Positions 12,680 through 64,000 of a stretch of 64,000 bases of DNA are shown piece after piece (within the stretch, counting starts at the first letter, position 1; the number at the start of each line of letters is the position of its first letter). The stretch lies in contig NZ_CADFEN010000002.1 of the NCBI RefSeq assembly GCF_902833145.1, positions 248,001 through 312,000 of the forward strand. Reading direction: 5' to 3'. A program made the position numbers and the translations under genes. Below the pieces are notes generated by a model. That model saw only the letters and a program-made list of their open reading frames with translations, ran no database searches and had not been told where the DNA came from. Source of the DNA: Burkholderia sp. BCC0506 (GTDB lineage Bacteria; Pseudomonadota; Gammaproteobacteria; Burkholderiales; Burkholderiaceae).

Positions 12680-13576
12680 TCACCGCCCGGGCGCCGCACG
12701 CTCGACGATCATGTCGTACAGCGCCCGCGCCGCGGGCGACAGTTGCGCGTGCCTGCGCGTGACGAGCACGAGCGTGCGCGACACCGACGGCTCGACGAGT
12801 TCGATCGTGCGGATCATCGGATACGCGTTCTTCTGGATCGCGAGCTTCGGCACGACCGCCGCGCCGAGCCCTTCCGCGACGAGCCCGAGCGCCGTCGAAC
12901 TGCGCTGCACCTCGTAGAACGAATGCAGCGACACGCCGCTCGTCTTCAGCGCGCCTTCGAGCAGCCCGCGATTGCCGCTCACTTCGCCGGCGAAGATCAG
13001 CGGATGCGGCTGCAGCGCCGCCCAGCGGATGCGCCGCCGCTTCGCGAGCGGATGATCGTCGCGGCACACGAGCACGTAAGGGTCATGGGCGAGCGGCATG
13101 CTGACGAGTTCCGGGTGCTGATCGCCGGCGATGCCGATGCCGAATTCGGCTTCGCGCCGCAGCACGGCCTGCAACACCGACGCCGACGCGTGATCGAGAA
13201 TCTTCACGCGATCGTGCGGCCGATGGTCGGAGAAGGCGCGCAGGATGCGCGGCAGGTACTGCACGCCGACCGTCGGCACGCACGCGATCGTGACGTCGCC
13301 GCGCTGGCTCAGGCCCGTCTCGCGGATTTCGGTCAGCGCGTCGGACAGTTCGTTCAGCAGCCGGCGCGCCTGCGGCAGGAAACGCCGGCCGATCTCGGTC
13401 AGCGTGGTGCGGCGCGTCGTGCGCTCGACCAGCGCGACGCCGAGATACGCTTCGAGCTTGCGCAGCCGCTGCGTGATCGCCGTTTGCGTGACGTGCAGCG
13501 TATCGGCTGCTTGCCTGAAGCTGCCGCCGTCGGCGATCGCGACGAAAGCCTGGACACCGAGCGTATCGATCTTCAT
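12680..13576 (-). CDS. LysR family transcriptional regulator
   Basis: 298 residues. The helix-turn-helix is ADGGSFRQAADTLHVTQTAI and TQRLRKLEAYLGVALVERTT. The effector domain has GDVTIACVPTVGVQYLPRIL and STALGLVAEGLGAAVVPKLA. It is divergent to the trans-aconitate methyltransferase gene with 137 bases between, where it probably binds its own promoter. The T/ITQRLRKLE pattern resembles ArgP-type LysR proteins, but the rest does not allow an assignment. Confidence 0.92.
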   Translation of the reverse strand: MKIDTLGVQAFVAIADGGSFRQAADTLHVTQTAITQRLRKLEAYLGVALVERTTRRTTLTEIGRRFLPQARRLLNELSDALTEIRETGLSQRGDVTIACVPTVGVQYLPRILRAFSDHRPHDRVKILDHASASVLQAVLRREAEFGIGIAGDQHPELVSMPLAHDPYVLVCRDDHPLAKRRRIRWAALQPHPLIFAGEVSGNRGLLEGALKTSGVSLHSFYEVQRSSTALGLVAEGLGAAVVPKLAIQKNAYPMIRTIELVEPSVSRTLVLVTRRHAQLSPAARALYDMIVERAAPGR

Positions 13577-38050: not shown

Positions 38051-38069
38051 CCGGACTCCTGCGCTTGCT

Positions 38070-46746: not shown

Positions 46747-47399
46747 CAAGCGAGTGCCCCCGAGTACCCGAACAACTGCCGCTAAGCTTCGAGTATCAGG
46801 AGCGGACGTTGCTACTTTCATGAGGGGGCATTCGGACCATGCGACTGTCTTGCGTGGGGCAGCAGCGGTTATCGACACCACCTTCTTTCCGAGTCAGCGT
46901 CGGGTCGATCTCGGGCTTGATGAACTGACGGCCAAGCAAACTCAGACTGGATCGGTCGCTGACGGAGAGATCAGATCTTGCCTTACGCAGGTGTGCCGAG
47001 GTACATTAATTCTGGTTACGCGTCACCGCTGGTTTTGGTTACGTCCGAACTCTCTCGGCAAATCAATGGCTTGCGTGGCCGACCCGACGATGTCAAATCG
47101 TACGTATGTTTGCGTGACCGCCGTCAACATCCGAACACTCGCTTTTCTAACAGTTTCGGTTACGTACGTTGCCTGTAGGACCCGCACTGGCGCTTCCCTT
47201 ATGGCCCATGTCCAATGAGCGCGCGAGCGTTATAGGTGCAGCCCGAAGTGACCGGGACGCGAGAGAATCGCGCCGACCGCAAGTACTGCCATCGTGACCG
47301 GCTAATCGTGTCGGTGCACTTGCGGCAGGCGACGAGCAACCACGTCGAGAGGCCTCATCGTGAAACGGAGGCTTCTCCTGCGGAACGCCAGACCAACTG
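46747..47399. other. 653-base non-coding stretch at the left edge of the accessory region
   Basis: No supported gene. The frames here have low-quality amino-acid mixes on both strands. I see no tRNA, attachment site or transposase text. It may be a graveyard of older insertions. A short hairpin, GGAGG-CTTCTCC, is near 47367. Confidence 0.45.
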
Positions 47400-48398
47400 T
47401 TAGGCAGCTTCGCTGGTACCTCTTCTTGCCCTGCGGAGCTGGTCGGTTCCTCTGCCGCTACGCGAATCACGAACCCGATAGAAATCATACCCAAGCATGA
47501 AAAGCGACGCCTCCAGCCTACGAAGCCCATCAGGTCCTGCGCACCATTCCGCACCGGCTTTATCACGTGCGTCAGAAAGAATCCAGTTGGCCCAGACGTT
47601 CACTCGGGCCCAGGATTTGGAACCGTAGCATCCGCCATACAGCTTGCTAAACTGGTGTCCGCCAGTGGACGGGTCGCGCAGCGTGCGGCCTCCATCACCG
47701 TTGGCCCACAGGAACTGGAGCTTCTCCGGAACGCCTGCAAAGTGGGACAGGGAGGCCAGGTATCGTTGCACGAGGAACCCAAGGGCGGCCCCAACGCGAC
47801 CATCGTAAATAATGTGATTGGGAAGTGCCAGCGCGTAGTACTTCGTCCAGCCGGCATTCATTCGCGGCGAGTGGGTGTGGCGGCTCTCACTGCCGCCGAA
47901 AGCCTCAATGTTCGGATTGTCTCCGCTCAATGCTTCTCGCCCCATGCGCAGGACATGGGGGAGGGCTTGTTCCTGTTGCTTTGCCCAACTCATATTTGCG
48001 GCGTACGCGCGACGTTTTTCCCCAAAGCCCCACTTCATCACTTCGTGACATGCCGCTTCGGCGAGCTTGTGCGCACGCGAGCTATTCTCGCCCTCAATGG
48101 CTTCCTTGATTTTCTGGCTGACTGCGCTGAGCGCAAGCATGTTGCCCTCAAAATCCTTTCGGTTCCACCAATACATATCAAAAAGGCTTTCAAGACTTTC
48201 GGCGCGCACCACGTAGACCGAACCACCACCATTCCGGTAGTCGTGGTAGCCACCCGGGAACTTGTCTTCAAAGCCATCATAAAGTTGATTTCTGGAAAAT
48301 CCGATGGAAAGCCCGAGGGACTTGCCCTGGATGACGCCGGCCAGGAAGGCGACGAAATCCTGAACGTCTTTATCTTCGAGGTAGTCAGTACGGTTCAC
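47400..48398 (-). CDS. hypothetical protein in the left arm of the SIR2/WYL module
   Basis: 332 residues; the first codon is GTG at 48398. The protein starts MNRTDYLEDKDVQDFVAFLA, has GGSVYVVRAESLESLFDMYW, AHKLAEAACHEVMKWGFGEK, NAGWTKYYALALPNHIIYDG (about residues 180-200) and AALGFLVQRYLASLSHFAGV, then ends with an Arg-rich tail. No signal peptide, membrane helix or catalytic motif is recognised. It is mostly alpha-helical. It lies after SIR2 on the same strand with a 112-base gap, so probably last in the WYL-SIR2 arm. Confidence 0.7.
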   Translation of the reverse strand: MNRTDYLEDKDVQDFVAFLAGVIQGKSLGLSIGFSRNQLYDGFEDKFPGGYHDYRNGGGSVYVVRAESLESLFDMYWWNRKDFEGNMLALSAVSQKIKEAIEGENSSRAHKLAEAACHEVMKWGFGEKRRAYAANMSWAKQQEQALPHVLRMGREALSGDNPNIEAFGGSESRHTHSPRMNAGWTKYYALALPNHIIYDGRVGAALGFLVQRYLASLSHFAGVPEKLQFLWANGDGGRTLRDPSTGGHQFSKLYGGCYGSKSWARVNVWANWILSDARDKAGAEWCAGPDGLRRLEASLFMLGYDFYRVRDSRSGRGTDQLRRARRGTSEAA

Positions 48399-48510
48399 GA
48401 CAGTTCAGCTCTTGGTAGAAGTCGGTTCGAGCCAGCAATGGGGGCTCGCATTTTGCACAAAGGCCCATTCTCGTTAACGGAAAAGTCGACGGTTACTGAA
48501 GGGAAAATGC

Positions 48511-49338
48511 TCATGCTTGTCGGCGGAGTTCATTGTCGATTTGTTGCAGTGCGTCTCGCGCCGCGCATGCCACTCCTACTCCGACTGCAATCGGTATCGC
48601 TGATTCCCGTGGGTTGATGCGGATGACACGAGGGCCATGCCTTTCACTAAATCGCCTCACGGTCGGTATTGCTCGGCCAGCGCCCACCTCGACCACTATC
48701 CGGCGCTGGCCGCGTTTGAACCAGGATGCGAACTGGTTTTCCTGCCTTTCCGCGTGCTTCTCCACCCATTGCGAGTCTCCGAACATAAGAATGTTCGGCC
48801 TCGCGAGACCTCCGCAATGTGGACACCTCGGCATTTCGTTCTCGAGCAGACATGTCGTTTCGTTGACGACCGGCATGAAGTCGTTAGCAGACCACGTCTC
48901 ATCGATGCAAGCCTCGACGCATTGAAGCCGGTGGATGGTGCCGTGGCATTCCACAATGTGCTGTTCATCGAATCCTGCCTTCTGGAACTGGCCGTCGACG
49001 TTGCTGGTGAACACGAAAGCGCCGTGCTTCATCGCCGACGCCCACCTGAGCAGAATGCCAAAGCCGGCATGAGGAACGGTCGCGCGATAAAGCGCGAGGC
49101 GGTGACCATAGAATCCCCAGCTCAGGCGCGGATTGCTCGCAAAGCCCGCGGGGTTGGCGATGTCCTCAAACGAAAATCCATAGTGGCGCAGCGCCGGGTA
49201 TGCACGCCAGAAGCCTTCCGTTCCCCGGAAGTCGGGTAGCCCGGAATCCACCCCCATGCCAGCGCCTGCGGTGATGAGCAGGCCGTCCGCATCGCGAATC
49301 CACGCCGCCGCCCGTCTGATTGCAATTTCGTGTTCCAC
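48511..49338 (-). CDS. SIR2-family NAD-dependent protein (first copy)
   Basis: 275 residues from GTG 49338. NAD-binding text is ITAGAGMGVDSGLPDFRGTE; the ribose-binding loop is FTSNVDGQFQKAG; the catalytic His is in VECHGTIHRLQC. Cysteines in that segment and in MPRCPHCGGLARPN supply the zinc ribbon, followed by RPNILMFGD. This is a complete deacylase-type sirtuin. It lies 41 bases after the WYL gene on the same strand. It differs from the second SIR2 in sequence, so it is not a recent duplicate. It could deacylate proteins or consume NAD; the sequence favours the former. Confidence 0.9.
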   Translation of the reverse strand: MEHEIAIRRAAAWIRDADGLLITAGAGMGVDSGLPDFRGTEGFWRAYPALRHYGFSFEDIANPAGFASNPRLSWGFYGHRLALYRATVPHAGFGILLRWASAMKHGAFVFTSNVDGQFQKAGFDEQHIVECHGTIHRLQCVEACIDETWSANDFMPVVNETTCLLENEMPRCPHCGGLARPNILMFGDSQWVEKHAERQENQFASWFKRGQRRIVVEVGAGRAIPTVRRFSERHGPRVIRINPRESAIPIAVGVGVACAARDALQQIDNELRRQA

Positions 49339-49379
49339 TCACTACCCCGATTACGCTGTTTAGTTTGCCGATGTGCCGC

Positions 49380-50444
49380 TCACGTAGTGGTGACGTAACG
49401 CTTCGCCAGTGCAGCCGCCTCGCGAGCGAATTCGTCGCGGAGTACGGCCGGTGCCAGAATCTCCACTGCAGCGCCGAGGGAACGAAGCCACCATCGTAGC
49501 TTGACGCTCGGGACCACCGTTCCTGTCACCTTTATCCGGCCATCGGGCAGCGGCGTATGTCGCTGGTCCTCCGACATGCGCCGCTCCCCAAGTCGCTTCG
49601 CCTCGGGCGGCTCTAGCGCGAGCTCCAGTACGACAGGCGGCTCCGGAAGAAAGTCGAACACCTGCTCCTTTTCAATCGTCGCCTTCAGGTTGAAATCCCG
49701 TGGGTACGCAAACGCTGTTCCGGAATCGACCGCAGAAATACAACGGTCCAGTCGATACATAATTCGAAGCCAGTTTGGCTTGCCTTCCTCGGGGCGTGGC
49801 GGGTGGTCCGGACTCTGGGCGACCATGTACATGAGGCCGGCTGATTCGACAAGTGCGAGCGGCCAGAGCCGTTTCGGCTTGATGTCTTCATCGCTTATCT
49901 CCTTGTAGGCCGGCCGATACCGAACAATGAGTTCGCGCTCGAAGAACGTCGCAGTCACAACCGTCTGGAAGACTTCTGGGTCGATGGGCGGCCGCCCCAG
50001 CAGATAGGTCGGCTCCACTGAACCAATCTTGTATACCCACGCCCGATACAGCCGGCTGTCTTCCCCGTCTTGCGAAAGACGGGTATCGGCGGCCTTGAAC
50101 AGTGGCTCGATGTCCATGGTGACCGCTGCGGGCAGCTTGTCCGCCACGAAGCGCCGGAGCGCGTGGAATGCTACCGCCTCCGAGGCGCTCATCAGGTTGG
50201 CCATCTGGTTGGCACCCTGCAACCACGATTGGCGCTGCCATAGAAGCTGCTGCCCGTCCATCGTGCACAACACAAGCCTTTCGCGCTCAAGCCGAGCAAG
50301 GCGGCGTCGAACCTGCCGCGGATAGTCGACCTGGTGGCCCCGGTCGGTCAGTAGTTGGATAACCCGTGAAGTGGGCATCCACGAGTCCGATTCCCTGTCC
50401 GTAGGCAGGATTCGAAGAATCGCTTCATCAAGGCTGGAGGTCAT
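49380..50444 (-). CDS. WYL-domain transcriptional regulator
   Basis: 354 residues. An N-terminal winged helix (SRVIQLLTDRGHQVDYPRQV, RRRLARLERERLVLC) leads to a WYL domain with FFERELIVRYRPAYKE and LWPLALVESAGLMYMVAQ, where the W-Y-L triad is altered to M-Y-M, and a C-terminal WCX-like part ending AGAAVEILAPAVLRDEFARE. Such proteins (BrxR, CapW) repress phage-defence operons and sense nucleic-acid ligands. It is placed between two divergent arms and 124 bases from the nucleotidase gene, with a palindrome between. Its role as switch of both arms is inferred. Confidence 0.88.
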   Translation of the reverse strand: MTSSLDEAILRILPTDRESDSWMPTSRVIQLLTDRGHQVDYPRQVRRRLARLERERLVLCTMDGQQLLWQRQSWLQGANQMANLMSASEAVAFHALRRFVADKLPAAVTMDIEPLFKAADTRLSQDGEDSRLYRAWVYKIGSVEPTYLLGRPPIDPEVFQTVVTATFFERELIVRYRPAYKEISDEDIKPKRLWPLALVESAGLMYMVAQSPDHPPRPEEGKPNWLRIMYRLDRCISAVDSGTAFAYPRDFNLKATIEKEQVFDFLPEPPVVLELALEPPEAKRLGERRMSEDQRHTPLPDGRIKVTGTVVPSVKLRWWLRSLGAAVEILAPAVLRDEFAREAAALAKRYVTTT

Positions 50445-50511
50445 CGGTCTGTGCGTCGTTCAACGGTGCGTGAGTCAGCTTTCTGGCTTGTCATGATTCT
50501 ACGAGAGGACT

Positions 50512-50528
50512 GGGACACTTTTTGTCCC
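50512..50528. promoter_or_regulatory. candidate WYL-regulator operator (perfect inverted repeat)
   Basis: GGGACA (50512-50517), CTTTT, TGTCCC (50523-50528) is a perfect six-base dyad in the short region between the divergent WYL and nucleotidase genes. It is the only clear dyad there. TTGTCA at 50488 is a possible -35 for the right arm, though the matching -10 is weak. Binding by the WYL protein is inferred from position. Confidence 0.45.
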
Positions 50529-50568
50529 TTGTGCCCCTCATCATTGTCTCCAGCCACAGGAGAGACCT

Positions 50569-51477
50569 ATGACTTCGACTACAAAAATCACCATCGCCGT
50601 TTCGGCCCGGGCGCTGTTCGACTTTGAGGCAGAAAATCAGCTGTTTCAGGAAGACGACCCATCGGCGTATTGTGCGCTTCAGGCCACGCGCCTGGACGTC
50701 CCGGCGAGCCCGGGCGTGGCCTTCCCACTGGTGCGAAAGCTCCTCGCCTTCAATAGCGGCGGGAACAACGACGTCGAGGTTGCCATCCTGTCGCGTAACG
50801 ACCCGGTTACGGGGCTGCGGGTGTTCACATCGGCCCGCCATCATGGGCTGGCAATCAGCCGAGCCATTTTTACTAGCGGTGCAAAGCCCCACCGCTACCT
50901 TGCGCCGCTTGAGGCAAACCTGTTCCTTTCTGCTCATGCGCCGGACGTCAGAGAAGCGATGTCGGCAGGATTTCCCGCAGCCCGGGTCTACCCGGTTTCA
51001 GGTTTGGTTACCGCCCAGAATGACGGGGAACTGCGCATCGCGTTCGACGGAGACTCAGTCCTTTTCAGTGACGAGGCCGAGCGTGTTTTCAAAGAGCGGC
51101 AGTTGCTGGAGTTCAATGCGCACGAGGTGCGTCACGCGCGTTCGCCATTACCTGCCGGTCCGCTGAAGCCATTCCTTGCCGCCCTGTGCGCACTTCGAAG
51201 CCAGCGCCGGTCGGTCGTACAGGTGCGCGTGGCGCTGGTCACAGCCCGCAGTGCGCCGGCGCATGAGCGGGCGATTCGCACGCTGATGGCGTGGGGCGTC
51301 GCGGTCGACGAGGCTATGTTTCTCGGCGGCAAGGATAAGACGGCCTTTCTCGCGGAATTTAGGCCTGACATCTTCTTCGACGACCACGTGCGCAACTGCG
51401 AAGCAGCTTCGCAACTCGTAGCGACCGGGCACGTGCCGTATGGCATCAACAATGAATGCCGGCCGGTTCTTCATTGA
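50569..51477 (+). CDS. 5'-nucleotidase (cytosolic 5'-nucleotidase I-like, PF06189 type)
   Basis: 302 residues; AGGAGAG precedes the ATG. N-terminal VAFPLVRKLLAFNSGGNNDV and VEVAILSRNDPVTGLRVFTS are family segments. HAD-type motifs follow: RIAFDGDSVLFSDEAERVF (nucleophile loop), VRVALVTARSAPAHERAIRT, GGKDKTAFL (Lys) and PDIFFDD. The enzyme should hydrolyse a nucleoside monophosphate such as AMP. It heads the right arm of the WYL-centred module. Nucleotide removal in a setting with two NAD-using proteins is notable, though no link is proven. Confidence 0.85.
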   Translation: MTSTTKITIAVSARALFDFEAENQLFQEDDPSAYCALQATRLDVPASPGVAFPLVRKLLAFNSGGNNDVEVAILSRNDPVTGLRVFTSARHHGLAISRAIFTSGAKPHRYLAPLEANLFLSAHAPDVREAMSAGFPAARVYPVSGLVTAQNDGELRIAFDGDSVLFSDEAERVFKERQLLEFNAHEVRHARSPLPAGPLKPFLAALCALRSQRRSVVQVRVALVTARSAPAHERAIRTLMAWGVAVDEAMFLGGKDKTAFLAEFRPDIFFDDHVRNCEAASQLVATGHVPYGINNECRPVLH

Positions 51478-51490
51478 GCGAGTGCCTGCG

Positions 51491-51877
51491 ATGAACCGGG
51501 AATTCGAAGACGCTCTGATGGCGAGCTATCCGGCAATCTACCGCTCCCTGAAGCCGCGCTTTTCCGGCTGTTGCCTGTTCGAGTGCGACGATGGCTGGTA
51601 TCGCATCATCGACGAGTTGTCGCGCAAGCTCGAAGTGGAATCGTGGAGGTCGCATCTGGTCGCGATTGAAGTGCGGGAGAAGCTGGGCAGTCTGCGTTTT
51701 CGTCTGCGCGGCGACATAACAGACGCCGTGAATAACTGGCTTACCGAAGCTGCAAGGTTGAGCCAGAGCACTTGCGAGCGGTGTGGTCAGCCAGGGACGC
51801 TGCGCGGGCATGAGGACGGCCAGGTAAGGACGCTCTGCCCAACCTGTGCCGCGGCGATGGGCTACGTCGTCGAATGA
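51491..51877 (+). CDS. hypothetical protein with C-terminal zinc ribbon
   Basis: 128 residues from ATG 51491, 14 bases after the nucleotidase; ATG 51452 would give a longer form. It starts MNREFEDALMASYPAIYRSL. The C-terminal STCERCGQPGTLRGH and VRTLCPTCAAAMGY hold two CxxC pairs, a probable zinc ribbon. The earlier part, FECDDGWYRIIDELSRKLEV and VREKLGSLRFRLRGD, is a small domain seen in uncharacterised proteins. Function unknown. Confidence 0.7.
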   Translation: MNREFEDALMASYPAIYRSLKPRFSGCCLFECDDGWYRIIDELSRKLEVESWRSHLVAIEVREKLGSLRFRLRGDITDAVNNWLTEAARLSQSTCERCGQPGTLRGHEDGQVRTLCPTCAAAMGYVVE

Positions 51878-51922
51878 CGTCGCCGCGACAAAACTTTCTC
51901 CCAACGACACGGATGAAATGCC

Positions 51923-52330
51923 ATGCCGCAACTCATCGAACACATTGATGCAATCGCCCGAAAACTTCAGCGGGACGTGCTCTATCTCGAATTCATGAAA
52001 GCGCAACGTCCTCGCCGCGCGGACTACCGGGGTCTGGATAGCCGCTTGCGCATCGTGCAATGGCTCGATAGCGAAGGTATCCGGTGGCGCGAGTGCGGGC
52101 AGGTTGCCTCCGGGACAGTCGTGCGTTCGTATGCCGGGGAGATTTTCATCGACGTGCCGTTCGACGAAACAGACAGTCAGTACCGAACGGTTCAGGCATT
52201 TCTCGAGTATCCAGACGGCGCGATGCGCTTCGACGACGTCCGGTTCTATGTCGTCACGCTGCAGGACGCCATGAAGAACGTGCATCACGATGAGCCCGGA
52301 TTCTGGGACCGCTGGGCCGACAACTTCTAA
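51923..52330 (+). CDS. hypothetical protein (135 residues)
   Basis: MPQLIEHIDAIARKLQRDVL starts an alpha/beta protein with IVQWLDSEGIRWRECGQVAS, SYAGEIFIDVPFDETDSQYR and EYPDGAMRFDDVRFYVVTLQ. Acidic overall, no membrane helix or signal peptide. It lies between two other small genes in the right arm with gaps of 45 and 26 bases. No family is recognised. Confidence 0.7.
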   Translation: MPQLIEHIDAIARKLQRDVLYLEFMKAQRPRRADYRGLDSRLRIVQWLDSEGIRWRECGQVASGTVVRSYAGEIFIDVPFDETDSQYRTVQAFLEYPDGAMRFDDVRFYVVTLQDAMKNVHHDEPGFWDRWADNF

Positions 52331-52356
52331 TCAGCAAGACAACAGAGGGGGGCGTT

Positions 52357-52563
52357 GTGAGCACAATCTATATTCGTGACGGTTCGTCGAGGATTATTGG
52401 CCGTATCCAGACCGGCAGCCAGGGGAAACAGTTCGCCTACGTGGGCGGCAGAATGGTTGGAATCTACAATCCACAACTGGACAAGACATTCGATTCCAGG
52501 CTGCACGTGTTCGGAAACGGAAATCAGTTGATGGCTTTGGTCCGTTGCGATGAAAACGATTAA
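52357..52563 (+). CDS. small hypothetical protein (68 residues)
   Basis: GTG 52357 is preceded by CAGAGGGGGG. The sequence STIYIRDGSSRIIGRIQTGS, FAYVGGRMVGIYNPQLDKTF and HVFGNGNQLMALV has three short strand-turn units of the type G-R-x-x-G and G-N-x-L that recur in small beta proteins of plasmids and islands. It overlaps the next frame by 14 bases. Function unknown. Confidence 0.65.
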   Translation: MSTIYIRDGSSRIIGRIQTGSQGKQFAYVGGRMVGIYNPQLDKTFDSRLHVFGNGNQLMALVRCDEND

Positions 52564-52984
52564 CGTCGTTGAGCCAACGCGCTCTTGTGCGCTAAAGTCA
52601 CAATTGGACCACCGTACTGCCATGCGAATACCTACCCGAGAAAGCTGGGCGCGAGAACGCCCCGATACATTGGCGTTTTGCAAAGGGTACCTGCCAATAA
52701 CACCGCGGAGGTTCTACAAATACACTTGGCAGATATGGACACCCGACTGCGAGCTTGAGAGCCGCGAGTTCTTGCATTATGCGCCGCGCATGTCGACCGC
52801 TGAATTTATTGCTCGCTACGAGGAGATGTCGAACGCCGGGCTGCCAGGATGGATATATCGTCACGACCGCCCGCTAGAAGGTCCCGGGACGCCTTTCGAT
52901 AGAAACCACCCGAAATGGAAAGCCGTGGAATTCGCTCCGTCATGGGATGACGACCCGGCCCCCATCTGGAACGGACACAAGTGA
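52550..52984 (+). CDS. hypothetical protein (144 residues)
   Basis: ATG 52550 overlaps the preceding gene end; ATG 52622 is an alternative that would drop 24 residues and start MRIPTRESWARERPDTLAFC. It has RRFYKYTWQIWTPDCELESR, REFLHYAPRMSTAEFIARYE and a tail with many Trp, Asp and Pro (DDDPAPIWNGHK). No known motif is evident. Last of four small genes before the second SIR2 gene. Confidence 0.6.
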   Translation: MKTINVVEPTRSCALKSQLDHRTAMRIPTRESWARERPDTLAFCKGYLPITPRRFYKYTWQIWTPDCELESREFLHYAPRMSTAEFIARYEEMSNAGLPGWIYRHDRPLEGPGTPFDRNHPKWKAVEFAPSWDDDPAPIWNGHK

Positions 52985-53082
52985 AATCGGGGCGTAGACG
53001 CCGGGGCTCGGCAACGGGCACCGATACTTGGCCTCAGTACGTTCGAAAAAGAATCGATGCATTCCCCGTCGGAGGATGAACG

Positions 53083-53829
53083 GTGTCATCTGCACAGCAC
53101 TTCACTGGTCCGCGCCTGTATGTGTTTTCAGGAGCAGGGCTGTCCGCCGAGAGCGGCATTCCAACATTCCGTACCGGCGGCGGTATCTGGAGTCGGGAGA
53201 GCATCGACGAGGTTTGCAACTTTCTAACCTGGCGCCGTAACCGGGAAGCGGTATTCCGCTTTTACAACCAGAGAATCGCCGAGAAACGGGACGCGCGACC
53301 GAACGATGCACATCGGATTCTCGCTGCCTGGCAGAGCCTGTGGGGACCTGAGCGGGTTCGACTTATCACACAGAACATCGACGATTTGCTCGAGCAGGCA
53401 GGCGCGCAGCAGGTCACCCACCTTCACGGTGACATGCATTCAATGCTTTGCACGTCGTGCGACCTCCGCTTCCCTAAGAGCGGTGAAGAGTATCGCCTCG
53501 ATACCGCCTGCCCTCGATGCGGGACAGCAGAAACGGTCAAACCAGGTGTGGTGTTCTTCCAGGAAGCGGCACCGGAATACGTGAAGCTGCATCGCATGCA
53601 ACTTGAGATGACTGGCAATGATGTATTCATCGCGATTGGGACCGCGTTTCAGGTCGTTTCGCCGGAAGCGATGCTGCCACGCGAGCGATGGCGCCGGCAC
53701 GAGAGGAGCTTTTTGGTGGACCCAGAACCGCATCGAGCGGAGTTTTTCGGATGCGTGGAACAAGAATCTGCGACGGTGGGTTTGCGCAACCTCGAAAGTC
53801 GAGTTCATGCGTTGATGACCACGCGATGA
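53083..53829 (+). CDS. SIR2-family NAD-dependent deacylase, CobB type (second copy)
   Basis: 248 residues from GTG 53083, which has GGAGG at seven bases; a nearby ATG is out of frame. The NAD site is VFSGAGLSAESGIPTFRTGG, the ribose loop ITQNIDDLLEQAG, and the catalytic His is in THLHGDMH. Zinc cysteines are in CTSCDLRF and CPRCG, followed by KPGVVFF. This is a full class III deacylase. It is 40 bases upstream of the AddB-like nuclease gene and in line with it. It is only distantly like the first SIR2 copy. Confidence 0.92.
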   Translation: MSSAQHFTGPRLYVFSGAGLSAESGIPTFRTGGGIWSRESIDEVCNFLTWRRNREAVFRFYNQRIAEKRDARPNDAHRILAAWQSLWGPERVRLITQNIDDLLEQAGAQQVTHLHGDMHSMLCTSCDLRFPKSGEEYRLDTACPRCGTAETVKPGVVFFQEAAPEYVKLHRMQLEMTGNDVFIAIGTAFQVVSPEAMLPRERWRRHERSFLVDPEPHRAEFFGCVEQESATVGLRNLESRVHALMTTR

Positions 53830-53869
53830 TACGCATTGCCTTCAAGACCTGCCTTACTCGAGACTACTC

Positions 53870-56488
53870 ATGCATGTCACTCTTGGACTGAAACTCGACA
53901 GCCGACTGGGGCCTTGCAATCATGACACCCTGGACCAGCCTGTCGTCGGCCCCCTGGGCCTGCTCGGGCTTCTTGAAACCTGGCTTGGGCTGAGCCGCCC
54001 GGAGGTAAGCACGGCGCAGCGCGTCACGAGCTATCTCGGCAATTTGCGCAAGCAAGCGGTGCCGAGCCGGTTCTACAGTCATTCGCTTCAGGCGGATAGC
54101 GTCGGCACCAGCGCCAAACTTCTTTCCTGGCGCGACGATTGGCGCCTCGGAGGTTGGGACGGCACAGCACCCGCAGGCAGTCCGCGAAGGTTGGTGGAGA
54201 TGGCGGAGGTCGAGCAGATTGCTAATGGCAACATTCCACCCGGACAAGCGGAGCGCCTCGCTGCGGTCCTTGTAGCGCTCGAAACCGGGCGGACGCCAAT
54301 CGAATCCGTGCGGCTTGTCGACCCGCTGGACAGCTTCCCGCGCGCCTGGCGCGGAGTTCTCGCCCGCCTGCCTGAAGTCAGGGCTTGGGAGCCGGAGCCT
54401 CAAGGTGAAGGATTGCTTCGTGAACTTCAGAAAAGTGCACTCGAGGCAGTTACGAGGGGGGAGCTTCGTCCCCTCGTCAACCCGATTGCCGACGGCAGTA
54501 TCGTGTTTGTTCAGTCATCGACCCGAGAGGCTGCTGAGCATTGGCTCAGTGCATATTGCCGCCAAACGCCAGCAGACCGGCTTCTGGTGTGCGAGTCAGA
54601 CGGTGATTCGGTCGACGCAACGATGATGGCGACGGGTGGCGCCAGCAGTGGCTTTCGCCGCGTCAGCAGCCTGCGTCCTGCCTTACAGGCCCTTGGCCTG
54701 GCACTTGAAATGTGCTGGGCCCCGGTTGATGTCGGACGCCTCGTCGAGTTTCTTTCTCATCCCATTGGCCCTTTCCCGCGGAAGGCACGCGTTCGGCTCG
54801 CGAAGGCTGTCGCGGAGCAACCGGGTATCGGAGGCGGTGCATGGGAATCAGCGAAGCAGGAAATCCACGGCACCGAAAACGGCGAAGCCATACTTGAGGA
54901 CATCGCTTTCTGGCTTGAGGGCGAGCGCTGGAATCGCGATGCCGGCGCACCCGTCGATGCGCTTCTGGCGCGGGTCGAGAAGCTGGCCGATGCCCTGCGC
55001 AAAAGGCTCGCGGACGATGGTCTGTTGAACTCGACGCTCGGCGCGGCGATAGAGCAGTGCTCGGCAGTTCGGGACGGTCTGCTTGAATTGAAAAGCCAGG
55101 GCGCGCCCGCCATCGCACCGCGCATGGTTGAACAGCTTCTTGAGCACGCAACGCCAATGAGTGCCGGAAACCCTTTTGCGCCGGCGCAGGTAGGCTGCCT
55201 TCGGGCCGAGTCGGACGCCGCGGCCTGCATCGATTCTGCCGACGAGGTCATCTGGTGGATGCCATCGACGCCGCAGTTGCCGCTACCGCTTGAATGGACG
55301 AAGTCGGAAGTCGCGATACTCCGGGACCTCGGCGTGGAGGTGCGCGACCCGCAGAGCGAACTGGAGCTATTGTCCCGGCAGTGGCTGCGCCCACTGCTCG
55401 TCGCGAGGCGCCGGTTTATTATGGTTTTGCCGCCGCCTGGCGCGGAGGAGCATCCTGTTCGGCAACTGCTGCTGAAACTTTGGCCAGACCTGAAGGAGCA
55501 CCGCGTCAACCTTGATGCGCAGGTTTCGAACGGGTTTGTTGGGACGCTCGCGGAGAACGTCACGCGCACGGCGTTGCCTCCAGCGCCTCAGTCGCTCGAA
55601 CTCTGTGAGCCGATTACAGTACCGACGACGGACCAGTCATACACGTCCATGTCGGAGCTATTCAACGCGCCCGCACTCTACGCGTTCAAGCGCATCGCAC
55701 GCATGCGCCCGGCCTCGATACTTGAGGCACGGGATGGCAACAATCTCCTGGGCACGCTCGCGCATCGTGTTTTCGAGAAGCTATTTCAGCAGGCGGACAG
55801 CCTGAGCTGGAGCGACGAGCAGGCGGTTGCATGGTTCCGGGACAACGTTGATTCCCTCCTTCGGACTGAGGGTGCCATCTTGCTGATGCACGGTGCCGGG
55901 GTCAGTCTGCAACGATTCAGGAGCGTATGCGAGCATGCAATCCGTTCGATGATGCGCCATCTGCGCGCCGCGAAGGCTACCCGTGTCCATACCGAGCTGC
56001 CTGTCACGGGTAAGCTCGGCGACGTGTCGCTTATCGGCAAAATCGACCTCGTCGTCGAACTGGCTGGTGGCCCAGCTGTAGCACTGGATATGAAATGGCG
56101 CGGCGACAAGCATTACGCGGACGCACTGCACGACGGGCAGCATCTCCAGCTAGCACTCTATTCGTCGCTGTACCAGCAGCAAGCCGGCGTCGCGCCGGCG
56201 GCGCTGGGTTATTTCATTCTGGAGACTGGCGCGATGTACGTCAGTGCCCCCGACGTCATCCCGACTGCACAGGTTCGGACACCACCTCCGACTGCAACCG
56301 CAGGTCTCATTGAGCAGGCCAGGGCAAGTTGGTCCTGGCGCGCCAATCAATGGGCTGAAGGCCACATCGATGTCGTTCCAGTTGGCGGCGGGGAAGATTT
56401 CAACGGACCTGAGGGCACACTGCCGGTGAACGGGCCGAATGCGTGGGATAAGGACTATATGGTACTGCTCGGGGGATGGGAGCAATGA
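53870..56488 (+). CDS. AddB-like PD-(D/E)XK exonuclease
   Basis: 872 residues. The first 600 are an inactivated-helicase-like scaffold (for example LVEFLSHPIGPFPRKARVRL). The C-terminal nuclease has the RecB/AddB order: LLGTLAHRVFEKLF with His632, then HTELPV (Glu709), GKIDLVVEL (Asp726), ALDMKWRG (Asp740-x-Lys742) and GQHLQLALYSSLYQQQ (Gln757/760). All catalytic residues are present. It is shorter than housekeeping AddB and lacks an obvious iron-sulfur Cys set. Its stop overlaps the helicase start, so the two form a complex by inference from AddAB. Confidence 0.85.
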   Translation: MHVTLGLKLDSRLGPCNHDTLDQPVVGPLGLLGLLETWLGLSRPEVSTAQRVTSYLGNLRKQAVPSRFYSHSLQADSVGTSAKLLSWRDDWRLGGWDGTAPAGSPRRLVEMAEVEQIANGNIPPGQAERLAAVLVALETGRTPIESVRLVDPLDSFPRAWRGVLARLPEVRAWEPEPQGEGLLRELQKSALEAVTRGELRPLVNPIADGSIVFVQSSTREAAEHWLSAYCRQTPADRLLVCESDGDSVDATMMATGGASSGFRRVSSLRPALQALGLALEMCWAPVDVGRLVEFLSHPIGPFPRKARVRLAKAVAEQPGIGGGAWESAKQEIHGTENGEAILEDIAFWLEGERWNRDAGAPVDALLARVEKLADALRKRLADDGLLNSTLGAAIEQCSAVRDGLLELKSQGAPAIAPRMVEQLLEHATPMSAGNPFAPAQVGCLRAESDAAACIDSADEVIWWMPSTPQLPLPLEWTKSEVAILRDLGVEVRDPQSELELLSRQWLRPLLVARRRFIMVLPPPGAEEHPVRQLLLKLWPDLKEHRVNLDAQVSNGFVGTLAENVTRTALPPAPQSLELCEPITVPTTDQSYTSMSELFNAPALYAFKRIARMRPASILEARDGNNLLGTLAHRVFEKLFQQADSLSWSDEQAVAWFRDNVDSLLRTEGAILLMHGAGVSLQRFRSVCEHAIRSMMRHLRAAKATRVHTELPVTGKLGDVSLIGKIDLVVELAGGPAVALDMKWRGDKHYADALHDGQHLQLALYSSLYQQQAGVAPAALGYFILETGAMYVSAPDVIPTAQVRTPPPTATAGLIEQARASWSWRANQWAEGHIDVVPVGGGEDFNGPEGTLPVNGPNAWDKDYMVLLGGWEQ

Positions 56489-59400
56489 ACAACATCGAAT
56501 TCATCAGCGCAGGTGCGGGCAGTGGTAAAACCTACAAGCTCACGGAGACGCTCGCCGAGGCACTCGAGTCAGGCGAAGCACGGCCGCACGCCGTCCTCGC
56601 GACAACCTTCACGGTCAAAGCTGCAACGGAGCTGCGCGAGCGCGCGCGCGCATGGCTCTTGAACAAAGGCGCAATCGGGCTCGCTACTGCTATCGGCCAG
56701 GCAAGGCTCGGAACAGTCAATAGCGTATGCGGCCAGTTGCTGAAGCGCTTCTGCTTCGAGATAGGTCTATCCCCGGACCAGACCGTCTTGAGTGAAGGTC
56801 AGGCCAAGCGCCTGCTGGCGACGTCACTAGCAGAGACGCTCGACGACGCCGGGCGGGAAAAGCTGGTAATGCTCACCACCAGGTTTGGCATCGACCATGC
56901 GGAATGGTCAGCGCAGATTGAGGATGTAGTGAACGCCGCTCGGAATAACGATATTTCGGCGGACGAGTTGCGAAAAATGGGCCATCGGAATGCCGACCTG
57001 ATGCTGGCGAATTGGCCCACTCCCTCCGTAAGCAGCGACCCAACGGGAGAACTCGTTGTCGCCTTGACGAAGGCACTGACGGACGTATCGTTGCATATTG
57101 CAACGGCTGAGGCCGCGGGCGGGAATGTCGCGCAGAACCTTCGGAATGGTCACAAGGAGCTGGAGCGCCTCGAGCGGTGCTTTCGGGAGGGGCGTTGGAG
57201 CTGGCCAGACTGGATTGCGGCTTGCACGCTGAACGCCGGTGCCGTAGTGCGCGCGGCTATCACCCCTGTTTCGGAAGCCGCACAGGCGCACGAATCGCAT
57301 CCTGGATTCCATGCGGATGTGCGCTCCTATCTAGAACTGGTGTTCGAACTGGCCGCCATGACGCTCGACACCTATGCCGAAGCCAAGCGTGCGATGGGTG
57401 CGGCTGACTTTGGCGACCAGGAAGTTCTGCTGCTTGAGGTTATCCGCAAGAACGAGGATGTTCGCCAAGCGTTGGCCGATGAGCTCGACCTTGTGATGGT
57501 CGACGAATTCCAGGACACCAGCCCGCTACAGCTCGCGCTTTTCGTGGAACTCGCCAAACTGGCCAAGCGCTCTGTCTGGGTTGGAGACCCGAAGCAGGCC
57601 ATTTACGGATTCCGGGGCACCGATGCCCGGCTCATTGCAGGCATTCTCGCGGCTGTTGAGGGTTGGGGCGGGAAGCTGGGCGCTCCGCTGACTACCTCCC
57701 GACGCTCAACGCCGTCGCTGGTCTCTCTCACAAATGCGGTATTTGGCTCTGCGTTCCTTCCGGAACTGCAGCCGGAACAGGTGCACCTGCAACCATCGAG
57801 GAATGACATTGCAGGGCAACCGGCGTTATTCCACTGGAACTTCGAAAGCAAAAACAACGAGTCCGACTACCTCGCGTTGGGGCAGGCAGTCAGCGAACTG
57901 CTTCAATCGGAGTTGAAGGTCGTTGACCGGCACACCCAGCAGGAACGCCCTGTTCGACCGGGTGATATAGCGGTCCTTTGCCGCAAGAACGACCAGGTTG
58001 AACTTGCGGTAACTTCACTGACGCAATGGGGCGTACCGTCCGCGAGTCCGAGAGCCGGACTTCTTGGTACGCCCGAAGCTATTTTTGTTCTTGCGTGTCT
58101 TCGACGCTTGCTCGACGCAGGGGACACGGTCGCGTCCGCGCTTATTTTGTCCCTCGCTGATGGCATTCCTGCGCAGGAGTGGCTCGGGGACCGGCTCGAG
58201 TACCTCTCCCGGGAAGATGCAAGCCCTTCGCGGTGGAAAGCTGAGGGGGACGATGCGCATCCGCTACTTGCCCGTCTGGAGAAGTTGCGAGCAAGCCTCG
58301 CTGCTCTTACCCCGCGGGAGGCGCTGCGACTCGCCAAAGCCGAGTCACACGTTGCCCATGTTGCAAGCCAATGGTCGAGTTCTCCCCAACAAGCGAGGAC
58401 TCGAATCGCCAACGTGGAAGCCTTGATGGACCTCGGCACCGCTTATGAGGACGAGTGCATCGCCGCCAGACGTCCGGCAACCGTTAGCGGGCTGCTGCTT
58501 TGGCTTGGCACACTTGCTGACGACCTGGCCGACGACCGTGCCGCGACCGCCGACGATGCCGTCAGCGTGATGACACACCATGGAGCAAAGGGGCTTGAGT
58601 GGCCGGTCGTCATTCTGACGTCCCTCGGAACGGCAGCGAGAAGTGCGCTGTGGGGCGTTCGTGCGCGTACCGACGGCGAGTTCAATCCCGAGCGCCCACT
58701 TGAAAATCGCTTCGTGCACTTCTGGCCGAGGTCATGGGGCAAGCGGACTCAGTCGCAGTCAGCCACCAATGCTGAGCAAAGCGCTATCGGCCAGAGGATG
58801 GCGGTGGATGCGCTTGCCGAGAACAAGCGGTTGCTCTATGTCAGCATGACACGTGCACGCGACGTAAGCGTTGTTGTGACTTGCCAGCGGAGTCGGAGCA
58901 TCAACAGAGACTGGGTGGATGAGGTCGAGGCAGGTGACCTGCTGTTCGGCGATACAGGTCCAGTCGTGCTGCCAGATGCGCGGACTCTTCTCCGAAAAGC
59001 TGGAGTCTGGAAAGTCACCGAAATGGGCGCGCCACCAGCACCGCACGAATCGACATGTAGCTGGTACGTGGCGGCGCGCGTTAGCGATGCTCCGCCTCTC
59101 TGGTATCGACCGAGCGATGCCGAAGGTGGTCTATACCAAGTCGTGACATCAGAGCCGGTCGGCGTACGCATCGCAATCACCGCCAGCGTCGAAATGGACG
59201 TACTCGGAAACGCGATGCACCTCTGTATCGCACGCGCTGGTGTAACAGGAAGTGTGCAAGACGCTGATGTCGAGCGAATCCTCAGTATCTGGGGAGTGGC
59301 GCACGCAGTCGACAAGACCGCTGTCATCGCCCAGCTACAAGCGTTCTTCGAGTGGCAGCAACAGCACTGGCCGGGGAGCACGATTCGCGTCGAGGTGCCT

Positions 59401-59661
59401 GTCGAGGCCAATCGCCCGGATGGAACGCGACTGCGAGGTCGTATCGATATGCTGCTGGATACGCCTGACGGATGGGTCCTCATAGACCACAAGTCGAATC
59501 CCGGTGGCACTAGGCATGATGACGCACTCGCGCGGGAGCACGGCCCACAGCTATCCGCGTATGCTCATGCCATCGAGCAATGCACGGGGAGAGCCGTCAA
59601 GGAGCGATGGCTTTACTTGCCGGTTTCCGGTCGTGCTTTGCAGTTACAATCGGCTGCGTAG
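56485..59661 (+). CDS. AddA/RecB-like UvrD-family helicase with C-terminal nuclease
   Basis: 1058 residues from ATG 56485 (ATGA overlap with the nuclease gene; GGGAGC in front). Superfamily I motifs: Walker A SAGAGSGKTYKL (10-16), DEFQDTSPLQ (Asp340-Glu341), GDPKQAIYGFRGTDA near 372, VSVMTHHGAKGLEWPVVIL (motif V region) and LLYVSMTRARD (motif VI). The C-terminal PD-(D/E)XK nuclease has GRIDML (Asp988), LIDHKSNPGG (Asp1001-x-Lys1003) and SAYAHAIEQ. So it carries both helicase and nuclease, like AddA. It should unwind and cut DNA ends with the upstream partner. Confidence 0.9.
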   Translation: MNNIEFISAGAGSGKTYKLTETLAEALESGEARPHAVLATTFTVKAATELRERARAWLLNKGAIGLATAIGQARLGTVNSVCGQLLKRFCFEIGLSPDQTVLSEGQAKRLLATSLAETLDDAGREKLVMLTTRFGIDHAEWSAQIEDVVNAARNNDISADELRKMGHRNADLMLANWPTPSVSSDPTGELVVALTKALTDVSLHIATAEAAGGNVAQNLRNGHKELERLERCFREGRWSWPDWIAACTLNAGAVVRAAITPVSEAAQAHESHPGFHADVRSYLELVFELAAMTLDTYAEAKRAMGAADFGDQEVLLLEVIRKNEDVRQALADELDLVMVDEFQDTSPLQLALFVELAKLAKRSVWVGDPKQAIYGFRGTDARLIAGILAAVEGWGGKLGAPLTTSRRSTPSLVSLTNAVFGSAFLPELQPEQVHLQPSRNDIAGQPALFHWNFESKNNESDYLALGQAVSELLQSELKVVDRHTQQERPVRPGDIAVLCRKNDQVELAVTSLTQWGVPSASPRAGLLGTPEAIFVLACLRRLLDAGDTVASALILSLADGIPAQEWLGDRLEYLSREDASPSRWKAEGDDAHPLLARLEKLRASLAALTPREALRLAKAESHVAHVASQWSSSPQQARTRIANVEALMDLGTAYEDECIAARRPATVSGLLLWLGTLADDLADDRAATADDAVSVMTHHGAKGLEWPVVILTSLGTAARSALWGVRARTDGEFNPERPLENRFVHFWPRSWGKRTQSQSATNAEQSAIGQRMAVDALAENKRLLYVSMTRARDVSVVVTCQRSRSINRDWVDEVEAGDLLFGDTGPVVLPDARTLLRKAGVWKVTEMGAPPAPHESTCSWYVAARVSDAPPLWYRPSDAEGGLYQVVTSEPVGVRIAITASVEMDVLGNAMHLCIARAGVTGSVQDADVERILSIWGVAHAVDKTAVIAQLQAFFEWQQQHWPGSTIRVEVPVEANRPDGTRLRGRIDMLLDTPDGWVLIDHKSNPGGTRHDDALAREHGPQLSAYAHAIEQCTGRAVKERWLYLPVSGRALQLQSAA

Positions 59662-59908
59662 TGCTGCCACGTCGTTCTCGGTTGAGCTCCATGAATATCT
59701 TGTGGCGAGCTATCCTACGGCTTAGGCGAACAGTAAAACTTCAATCAGGGATGGCGCCGGCGCGGCAACCCGTTGCGCTGGCACACATCATTTAGACATC
59801 GTTTGGCACCTAACCGTTCGGTCTAGGTGCAAGCTATGATTGAAAAGGTTGCAGCTTTCATAATAACCGGCACTAGAGAACGGACACGTCACGACTTCGG
59901 GGTAACAA

Positions 59909-61996
59909 TTGGCATTTTCGTCTGCGGAACTACAAAGACTCGGTGACCTGCTAGCGGGTTATCACTTCCACATCCCGGACTACCAGCGCGGTTTCGCTTG
60001 GGGCGAAGCGCAGCTGGAAGCCTTGTGGAACGACCTTCACGTCACCGTGTCCTCCCAAGCCAAAGAACACTTCACCGGCGTTGTACTGCTGCGCCAGCTG
60101 AATGAAGACAACGCGACGCTGCAGTCGGTGGAGCTAATTGACGGCCAGCAGCGAGTCATTAGCGCTATGACGCTTGCCAGTGCGCTCGCCCGACGCGCAA
60201 GCGCATCGGAGGGCGAGAGCCAACGCGCTGCGAGGCATGATTTCAAAGTAAGCTTTCTTGACAACGCCGAATTGCAGACCTACTTCAATTTCTGGACGTT
60301 GAATGACGAAAATGCGGCCGCCCGTGTCGGCCCCGACTGCTCCAGTTACGCCGCCAACCTCAAGAATGCCGCGCAATATTTCAGAAAGCGCGCCGCTGAA
60401 CTACCGGATGCCTTTCACGCGCGCCAGTATCTGGATGTCCTGCTCGACCGATTCCGGTTGTTCGTGCTCGATGCGCACCCGGATTTCGACATTCACGTTG
60501 CATTTGAGACGCTGAATAACCGCGGCAAGAAGCTTTCAACGCTCGAATTACTAAAAAACCGGCTGATTTACCTGACCAACGTGTTGCCCTCCCGGGACGC
60601 CGAGGTCGACGTCAGCACCGACGAGCCACATCTGAACGGCAGAGCGCTACGCGAACAGGTTCATCTCGCCTGGAAAGGCATCTATACGTCCCTTGGCCGC
60701 AGTCCGGCCACACAGAACCACGACGACGAATTTCTCCGCGCGCACGCAGTTGCCTATTTCGGCGAAGTCAAGGACGCAGACTGGCTCGATAATGTCTTGC
60801 TGAATGAGACCTTTACGGCGAAGAACAAGTCGTTGGCGCTCGAAGACGTGTCCGCATATATCCGCAATCTCGAACAAGCAGCGGTTTGGTGGTCTCACGT
60901 GCACGAGACCAAACTGATGCCCACAACGCATCAGTTACACCTGGAGCGTATTGCACGCATTGGCCACGCCTATTTCAAGCCGCTCCTCCTGGCCGCCTAC
61001 ATGCGGGCCACTGCGCTCAACTCTGAGGCGCTTGGGGAGCCTCGCGCATACGAAGCGGACATTAAGCCTGTCGCAGGGCTTCTCGAGCAGGTCGAGCGCT
61101 TTATCGTACTGGTGCTCAACTTGTCGGGGCGAGCGAGTCACCTCGGTCGGTCGCATATGAACCGGATGGCGCACTCACTCCTGCGCCCAGACTCGTTCGA
61201 CTGCCCTTGGAAGGATAAGGGCTTGCCTACGATGCCTGCAGACGACGCCATCGCGTTTGCGAAGAGCTATGTGAAGGCCTATATCGATAACGAGGAGGTT
61301 GGCGACTCCTGGTCTGACCCGCGCTTTGAGTGGGTGGGCGCGTATTCCGCTGCTGATGTACAGCGGCAGGTAGCGGCCCGACTCAGGGAGGGCACCGGTT
61401 ACTACAGGTGGCCATTTGCCCGGCTCCTCCTGCTCGAATACGAAGAGGCCCGGCGTGAGGCGGGCAACAAACCCATTGCGCTTGAATGGCCGTGGGACGA
61501 ATTCAGTTTCGATAAGACGGTAGAGCACATCTTCCCGCAGACGCCTGACGAGGACGGTTACTGGGATAGAGCCATCCCCATCGATGGCCGCGCCAAAGCC
61601 CTGAGAAAGGCCGTGGTCCACTCACTCGGTAACCTGATGCTTCTGTCGAACAAGGTGAATTCGAGCGTCTCAAACCTGCCATTCCGGGCAAAAGGCGGTA
61701 CTAACAGCAAGCTTATGTCCTACGAGGTCGGCAGCCACTCGGAAACCCAGGTGGCACAAGTTTTTCGCGGGCGTGACTGGACTGTTGCGTGTATTGCTGC
61801 CCGCGGCATCGCCATGCTCAAGTTTGCGGAGGAGCGCTGGTCATTCAGATTGACCGAGGCGCCAGACAACTACAGCACATATCTCCCGTACCTGTTTGGG
61901 GACAAAGCTGACGCAGTTTACGCAGGGGAGGCAAGCAATGGCCGGCAGGTTGACGGTCGTGCCCTCAACGCGCTGGTGGACGCTTTGCTTGGGTAA
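59909..61996 (+). CDS. GmrSD-type DUF262/DUF1524 protein (type IV restriction)
   Basis: 695 residues from TTG 59909. N-terminal DUF262 has FHIPDYQRGFAWGEAQLEAL (residues 22-41) and VELIDGQQR (78-82), the ParB-like NTPase/binding motifs. The C-terminal DUF1524 HNH nuclease has TVEHIFPQTP (His540) and HSLGNLMLLSNKVNSSVSNL. Fused DUF262-DUF1524 proteins such as GmrSD and BrxU cut DNA with modified bases. It lies 247 bases after the helicase, in the same direction but likely with its own promoter. A strong terminator follows 255 bases on. Confidence 0.9.
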   Translation: MAFSSAELQRLGDLLAGYHFHIPDYQRGFAWGEAQLEALWNDLHVTVSSQAKEHFTGVVLLRQLNEDNATLQSVELIDGQQRVISAMTLASALARRASASEGESQRAARHDFKVSFLDNAELQTYFNFWTLNDENAAARVGPDCSSYAANLKNAAQYFRKRAAELPDAFHARQYLDVLLDRFRLFVLDAHPDFDIHVAFETLNNRGKKLSTLELLKNRLIYLTNVLPSRDAEVDVSTDEPHLNGRALREQVHLAWKGIYTSLGRSPATQNHDDEFLRAHAVAYFGEVKDADWLDNVLLNETFTAKNKSLALEDVSAYIRNLEQAAVWWSHVHETKLMPTTHQLHLERIARIGHAYFKPLLLAAYMRATALNSEALGEPRAYEADIKPVAGLLEQVERFIVLVLNLSGRASHLGRSHMNRMAHSLLRPDSFDCPWKDKGLPTMPADDAIAFAKSYVKAYIDNEEVGDSWSDPRFEWVGAYSAADVQRQVAARLREGTGYYRWPFARLLLLEYEEARREAGNKPIALEWPWDEFSFDKTVEHIFPQTPDEDGYWDRAIPIDGRAKALRKAVVHSLGNLMLLSNKVNSSVSNLPFRAKGGTNSKLMSYEVGSHSETQVAQVFRGRDWTVACIAARGIAMLKFAEERWSFRLTEAPDNYSTYLPYLFGDKADAVYAGEASNGRQVDGRALNALVDALLG

Positions 61997-62251
61997 ACGG
62001 CTTGCGCGGACTCAGCTTGAACCAGCATAGGCGGGCCAACCAATAATTTTGTGACAAGGTTCGCTCGCCATAGACCTATCGGTGAAGCCGGCTTGGCAGC
62101 TTCATTGCACACCGGCATTACAGTTTGGGCCCTCCTCCACCAGCCGTCCTTCCCCAGTGGGTTCGGAATAGGCGGCGAAACTCGGCTACCTCTGGCGTCT
62201 GTTCGAACTCGTCGGTAGTACTCGCGGCCGGATAAGCCGGCTTCGCCAACC

Positions 62252-62278
62252 AAAAGCCTCGTCCGGCGCCGGGCTTTT
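62252..62278. terminator. bidirectional intrinsic terminator
   Basis: AAAAGCC (62252-62258) pairs with GGCTTTT (62272-62278), with a palindromic CCGGCGCCGG inside the loop region and six Ts after it. It stands between the convergent DUF262 gene and the unknown gene at 62292, and can stop both. Confidence 0.8.
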
Positions 62279-62291
62279 TTGTGCGCGCCTC

Positions 62292-63821: not shown

Positions 63822-64000
63822 GCGGCCATCCTGCGCTGCAGTTCGCCGACTTCCGCATTTTGGCCGTGCAGTTTTTCGATGACGCCGGCCATGAGCGCTC
63901 CTTCGCCGTCGAGCAGTGGCGTATCCAGAACGGCTAGCAGCAACGTGCAGGCGTTGCTTCCGTCCTCGAGCACGGGGTCGAGTGTCGCGGTTTCTGTGGT
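63818..64000 (-). CDS. C-terminal end of a hypothetical protein (cut by window edge)
   Basis: 60 residues are visible, TTETATLDPVLEDGSNACTL followed by LLAVLDTPLLDGEGALMAGV and IEKLHGQNAEVGELQRRMAA, ending at TGA 63820-63818. The frame is open to the edge, so the start lies outside. The TGA overlaps the next ATG. Nothing in the visible part identifies the function, but the coupling suggests that its product works with the glycine-zipper protein. Confidence 0.55.
   Translation of the reverse strand, partial: TTETATLDPVLEDGSNACTLLLAVLDTPLLDGEGALMAGVIEKLHGQNAEVGELQRRMAA

Follow-up and report, generated by a model that had tools for sequence, protein, structure and literature searches.

A possible WYL-controlled accessory gene set beside different DNA-end machines in Burkholderiaceae

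The window analysed here is a stretch of 64,000 nucleotides from Burkholderia sp. BCC0506 (contig NZ_CADFEN010000002.1, positions 248,001 to 312,000), and the locus in question occupies positions 47400-59661 of the window. An open reading frame check and a Pfam scan placed ten open frames there (genes A to J), and both their number and their divergent layout agree with the original prediction. The left arm lies on the minus strand: gene C (49380-50444) encodes a WYL/WCX transcription regulator of 354 aa (Pfam WCX, E 3e-12; PADLOC WYL, 5.5e-21), gene B (48511-49338) a SIR2-family deacylase-like protein of 275 aa (PF02146, E 1.8e-21), and gene A (47400-48398) a protein of 332 aa with no assigned family and a weak HhH DNA-glycosylase-like or DUF2419-like fold. 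The right arm, on the plus strand, starts with gene D (50569-51477), a 5'-nucleotidase (PF06189, E 1.9e-114). The small genes E (51440-51877; 145 aa), F (51923-52330; 135 aa) and G (52550-52984; 144 aa) follow, three where four small unknowns had been predicted. E is an open frame with a sub-cutoff Pfam match only, and A, F and G had zero Pfam matches at E 0.1. Then come gene H (53083-53829), a second SIR2-family deacylase-like protein of 248 aa (PF02146, E 1.1e-36); gene I (53870-56488), an AddB-like PD-(D/E)XK nuclease of 872 aa (PF12705, PDDEXK_1, E 1.2e-16); and gene J (56476-59661), an AddA/RecB-like UvrD helicase of 1061 aa with a C-terminal PD-(D/E)XK domain (PF00580, 1.9e-45; PF12705, 4.6e-11). 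The GC content is 0.60 for the locus, versus 0.67 for the initial 33 kb of the window.

Related loci were fetched and are labelled L, and genomes G, with G000 being the genome of the window. A search with D returned 71 loci of at most 10 kb per side, many of them ending at contig ends. A strong relative of C adjoins D in L002, L003, L004, L005 and L066, and later searches added L143 and L169; weaker or more distant ones lie near D in L006, L007 and L027. Relatives of E (62-90%) were found in L002, L003, L004, L005 and L066, and a more distant one (40%) in L136; those of G occur in L004 (72%), L066 (88%), L097 (37%) and L169 (51%). The window, L004 and L066 have the whole A-J set, with a truncated D in L066; a decayed version of it is found in L143. 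J was detected in 9 of 398 Burkholderiaceae genomes, with at most four candidates scored per genome in the survey of A, two in those of J and RecC, and 11 in one further survey. Five of the nine (the window genome, G046, G1019, G968 and G951) carry C and more of the set near J. In G951, a part containing C, D, F and G lies beside I-J in rearranged orientation. In Burkholderia sp. Bp8963, a dynamin-like GTPase gene pair lies between C and D (L089, 6142-10055).

A second architecture, with an accessory RecBCD, was reached through distant relatives of A (about 23-30% identity). Here A, B, C and F stand in a single row with the machine, complete in two genomes and partial in three; F, of which an alignment was made, is shared with the RecBCD loci L088, L137, L149 and L150. 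For example, L149 and L150 carry on one strand the order B'-RecC-RecB-RecD-A-F-B-C-NERD helicase, with B as two overlapping pieces in L149. The same type of row, minus F, is present in L093, where a relative of F lies nearby on the other strand. In L088/L089 the order is RecC-RecB-RecD-A-F-B, and C lies some 2 kb upstream; a Paraburkholderia replicon (L137) has a RecBCD row without A or the second B and with RecC in two pieces. Two sirtuin genes are present in three of the five RecBCD-type loci. Moreover, F and a B-like sirtuin are found in DNA inserted between recC and recB in a distant low-GC gammaproteobacterium (L142), and a gene weakly like C (26%) stands in a row with F and A in L126. 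The L142 insert (6733-13398) is defence-like, and a methyltransferase and a WYL-like protein were read in it by eye only. C also directly adjoins SbcC/SbcD-like genes in L175 and lies about 9 kb from such genes, in the same cluster, in L097; the SbcCD label is our own, based on Metallophos and AAA_27 in L097.

The surroundings of RecC served for comparison. Of 40 RecC relatives found, 15 surroundings were viewed (14 fetched and that of G048) and 25 were left out. Among the 14 fetched, the two closest (L149 and L150) have the module. In the other 12, neither A, B, C nor F was found at E 1e-4 in the fetched stretches, of which those of L153, L154 and L155 extend no further than the end of RecD and that of L157 reaches 2.5 kb beyond it. 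The rows with another machine indicate a recurring accessory set that spans both arms. The proposed unity of the two arms thus finds support in part, from A, B and C on the left and F on the right, which recur together in the RecBCD rows. The recurrence of the accessory genes beside different DNA-end machines suggests a shared, undescribed programme of DNA defence or repair.

The promoter region between C and D (the C|D promoter) contains an exact GGGACA-N5-TGTCCC palindrome, GGGACACTTTTTGTCCC, at 50512-50528. It is proposed as the operator of C on the grounds of motif spacing, clustering and distance to the -10 elements. The proposed -10 hexamer of C is TAGAAT (50496-50501, minus strand), the same in relatives, and that of D is CATCAT (50539-50544, plus strand); both lie 21.5 bp from the palindrome centre. 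The palindrome is the single such site in the window even with up to two mismatches; shuffled windows yield about two such matches, so the window site by itself proves nothing. The C|D promoter is where the motif was first spotted; the count that followed used 2.70 Mb of loci fetched for other purposes, a non-random sample in which related species are tallied separately and C|D promoters make up 6 of 38 sites. In this sample the core GGACA-N5-TGTCC has 35 distinct sites at spacing 5, whereas 12 other spacings gave 0-6 sites apiece. A hexamer with at least four of six matches to TATAAT stands at 21.5 bp from the centre in 27 of the 64 half-sites outside C|D promoters (mean 0.85, maximum 3 at other offsets). 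Counted per site, 24 of 32 have it on one side or both (mean 0.83, maximum 3 at 46 other offsets). In the window, the C|D promoter carries such a hexamer on each side.

Ten whole genomes contain one to nine motif sites each, 43 in total. In four of them the sites are clustered within 40 kb: five of nine in G065 (within 32 kb), four of six in G1001, three of six in G048 and three of five in G051, with p of 0, 0, 0.001 and 0.001, respectively, in 20,000 simulated draws made for these four genomes only. One site lies near the system in each of G000, G046, G1019, G871 and G951; the genome of the window has two sites overall, one being the C|D site. The single site of G002, which has no known system, is near none. 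In four RecBCD versions the motif stands 47-50 bp before F (exact in L088 and L149; one mismatch in L137 and L150). RecBCD loci without the module have it before recC, exact in L153 (9845) and L157 (11915) and with one mismatch in L154 and L155; several genomes of the genus of L153 and L157 carry relatives of C elsewhere, some with internal stops. An orphan protein (71%) is common to motif-bearing regions of two Paraburkholderia species (L097, 5732-6811; L007, 5284-6141).

C counts as a WYL regulator by its WCX match above the cutoff and its PADLOC WYL match, its Pfam WYL match being sub-cutoff (0.053). No helix-turn-helix domain was matched in the general Pfam scan at E 0.1, and no search specific to it was made. 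In the PDB, the sequence of C has only five distinct relatives, of WYL or DeoR type (E 3.6e-5 to 1.1e-4), one of which includes 8tpk, titled as a DriD-ssDNA-DNA complex of C. crescentus, ssDNA being single-stranded DNA. According to the DriD report (PMC12340889), DriD is an ssDNA-stimulated WYL activator at a bidirectional promoter, its site ATACGAC(N7)GTCGTAT overlaps the -35 element at a fixed distance to the -10, and it controls recJ and a damage endonuclease. The system described here resembles that portrait in its WYL/WCX regulator, its proposed bidirectional promoter with a palindrome at -35 (the motif can also be read as GAC-N7-GTC) and its DNA nucleases. It differs in that the match of C to DriD is weak, the genes are accessory and stand with sirtuins and helicase-nucleases, and ssDNA sensing is only putative for C. 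From the place and clustering of the motif, C may bind GGACA-N5-TGTCC. The site geometry at C|D fits a DriD-type activation from -35, and ssDNA might be the signal.

The opposite sign of control was also considered. The original prediction had described WYL proteins as repressors, and C might silence both arms until infection, like BrxR, another WYL regulator at a defence locus with an inverted repeat, which is reported (PMC9122601) to repress defence genes by binding such repeats. However, the BrxR repeats in that account lie downstream of the -10, whereas the palindrome here is at -35 on both sides, and the imperfect -10 hexamers stand at a fixed distance, as in the DriD promoters. Repression by C is thus doubtful, and activation suits the promoter geometry better.

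The I-J pair fits the definition of an AddAB-like pair, a UvrD helicase with a C-terminal PD-(D/E)XK domain and an adjacent PD-(D/E)XK partner. A motif scan found GAGSGKT and DEFQD in J, and in I the nuclease motif and no G-x-G-[KS]. The pair shares the UvrD helicase and PD-(D/E)XK nuclease domains with AddAB and RecBCD. It differs from these in that J is far below the equivalog cutoffs for AddA (160.4 bits against 707.65 for TIGR02785; 145.6 against 860.75 for TIGR02784) and below that of the TIGR RecB model (143 against 696), and that the genome of the window has one RecC elsewhere. J is therefore called AddA-like and not AddA. Gabija also has a UvrD-type helicase, and many GajB models match J; however, the RecB of L093 is hit by GajB models as well, and no GajA was found in the other nine proteins or among the listed matches of J (25 of 50 families). 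In Variovorax, relatives of I-J are divergent from a WYL gene, and in Bradyrhizobium and Rhizobium they lie near ThiF-type genes (L084, L085 and L086).

When the PADLOC protein models were run without the system rules, D matched the candidate PDC-S08 (8.1e-124), C matched WYL, I matched DruK (4e-9) and the matches of J were mostly to GajB; none was obtained for A, B, E, F, G or H. A match to a curated system, which had been named as a way to overturn the claim of novelty, was thus seen for D alone and with a candidate only, and no multi-gene PADLOC system was evident by protein models. No account of the combination was found in the literature by title or start of abstract, in a search mostly without subscription journals. 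Each part belongs to a kind already known; what appears new is how they are combined and the promoter signature they share.

The two sirtuins look like deacylases rather than defence NADases. Both retain the GAG, G[IL]P[TD]FR, T[QS]NxD and HG motifs in a motif scan, and by these motifs they would belong to the PF02146 sirtuin protein deacylases. H has two zinc-type C-x2-C pairs, and B has one pair plus further cysteines in its sequence. The best solved relatives are SIRT5 for B (E 3e-19) and 4twi for H (E 1.1e-33). Several defence systems are based on SIR2, including ThsA, Dsr, SIR2-HerA and SPARSA, and B and H share the fold with them. The difference is that the matches of B and H are to PF02146 and to deacylases, and that neither matched a PADLOC family at E 0.01. 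The earlier hint of NAD chemistry is therefore weakened, since the sirtuin motifs are kept and the best solved relatives are protein deacylases.

Gene A matches the fold of HhH DNA-glycosylases weakly and carries the invariant residues K186 and D199, and it may be considered a candidate glycosylase-like protein. It stops in frame at 332 aa in the window; its two closest relatives extend to 446 and 434 aa, and two others (open frames of 335 and 324 aa) likewise have no C-terminal tail. DNA glycosylases such as Brig1 and a 5hmC glycosylase are reported as phage-defence proteins (PMC11078745, PMC13160076). If A is a glycosylase, a base excision of phage DNA comparable to that in those accounts is conceivable; the differences are that the fold match of A is weak and that no sequence link to Brig1 or the 5hmC glycosylase was searched for.

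The surroundings are also of defence type. Wadjet genes are neighbours of I-J in G951 and G992, and Shango genes in G980. In the window, a GmrSD-type restriction enzyme lies directly right of J (59909-61996, plus strand; PF03235, 3.5e-27; PF07510, 3.5e-13), and in L004 a 65% relative of it is found on the left side of the module. The predicted picture of a WYL-centred set in which two sirtuins are tied to DNA-end processing is supported, in these surroundings.

The best explanation, held tentatively at a little under an even chance, is that a WYL-controlled accessory module (C, B, A and F, here together with D, E, G and H) travels in Burkholderiaceae with an interchangeable DNA-end machine. 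In the proposed mechanism, phage attack or DNA breakage would generate ssDNA, which the WYL domain of C would sense, in the manner of DriD; C would then bind at 50512-50528 and activate the weak promoters on both sides. I-J might unwind DNA ends and degrade or resect them, and A might act on DNA bases and so supply lesions or ends to I-J. The sirtuins might deacylate partner or host proteins and thereby set activity, and D might trim the nucleotides released by degradation.

The same genes could instead serve DNA repair or recombination, such as break repair or replicon upkeep, with an extra RecBCD, AddAB or SbcCD that is damage-induced and sirtuin-tuned. The machines are of the classic end-repair type, the motif precedes recC in the module-free RecBCD loci mentioned above, and recJ and a damage endonuclease are under DriD control (PMC12340889). 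Nevertheless, the balance tips towards defence rather than plain repair, since the set is rare and its distribution patchy (J as counted above; A in 10 of 399 genomes surveyed), all 15 genomes tested have their own RecC, and I-J lies beside Wadjet, Shango and GmrSD genes. Two of the 15, G048 and G065, have a second RecC, and these are the two checked among the five genomes with the RecBCD module. The repair programme is accordingly judged unlikely.

Several observations weigh against the travelling module. I-J stands with none of C, A and B in its vicinity in four of the nine J genomes (G885, G992, G980 and G1069, the last known from a 9.6-kb contig only), and no C was found at E 1e-15 in G885, G992 and G980. 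D is truncated in L066 and L143, both with I-J; A is missing in L137 and L143; B is interrupted or partial in L002, L005 and L149; and the viral contigs searched had no relative of A or F. C resembles DriD only weakly, in its C-terminal half. The motif is only moderately commoner than the backward-read pattern (43 versus 25 sites in the ten genomes), clusters of at least three sites occur in four of the ten, and many of the 38 sites have no adjacent C gene. With one mismatch allowed, no further motif was present in the window at 47000-64000 besides the C|D site, near I-J in L084, L144, L145 and L146 (loci without the C|D part), or in those parts of L136, L082 and L142 that were scanned. The backward-pattern counts, and the lack of the downstream side in three of the 12 module-free controls, slightly weaken the case for the module and strengthen that for separate neighbours.

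In the latter explanation, a WYL-sirtuin-A unit, the 5'-nucleotidase and the AddAB-like pair would be separate members of a defence island with only a hotspot and a borrowed promoter in common. D is often seen by itself, A is found alone in several genomes and F on several plasmids, and relatives of I-J lie on Variovorax and rhizobial plasmids with the rest of the set not beside them. The right-hand genes are also different in L002 and L003, and I-J adjoins unrelated defence systems. The ten genes are thus no obligatory unit, as the separate I-J pairs and the truncated D also indicate. However, the order of A, B, C and F is conserved where they recur with RecBCD, and the C|D-F-G part lies near I-J in G951 even though rearranged. 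Separate occurrence without shared order had been stated as grounds to abandon a joint system; several genes do occur separately, and the core keeps both company and order. Separate neighbours are possible, but rather less probable than the module.

A bolder extension of the travelling module, which we regard as improbable at present, is a class of immunity in which a DriD-like, ssDNA-sensing WYL activator runs a local regulon of sirtuins, a glycosylase-like enzyme and an interchangeable AddAB-like, RecBCD or SbcCD-like machine. Invading DNA would be lesioned and degraded, and deacylation would license or restrain the machine. If this is true, spare RecBCD, AddAB or SbcCD machines would be inducible accessory weapons, and sirtuins that deacylate proteins and do not waste NAD would gain a place in bacterial immunity or repair. 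Moreover, GGACA-N5-TGTCC with a -10 at 21.5 bp would be a searchable signature for mapping the regulon in other genomes.

Two other features were observed around the locus. About 13 kb right of J, beyond the window on the same contig (L163, 8428-11401; G000:C2), are Tn7-like TnsD (6.6e-15) and TniQ (6.9e-8) matches, which might belong to a carrier element. On the left, a Tle3 phospholipase effector of the type VI secretion system (1.5e-95) lies beside VgrG (9e-66) at 35738-40832 of the window, on the minus strand.

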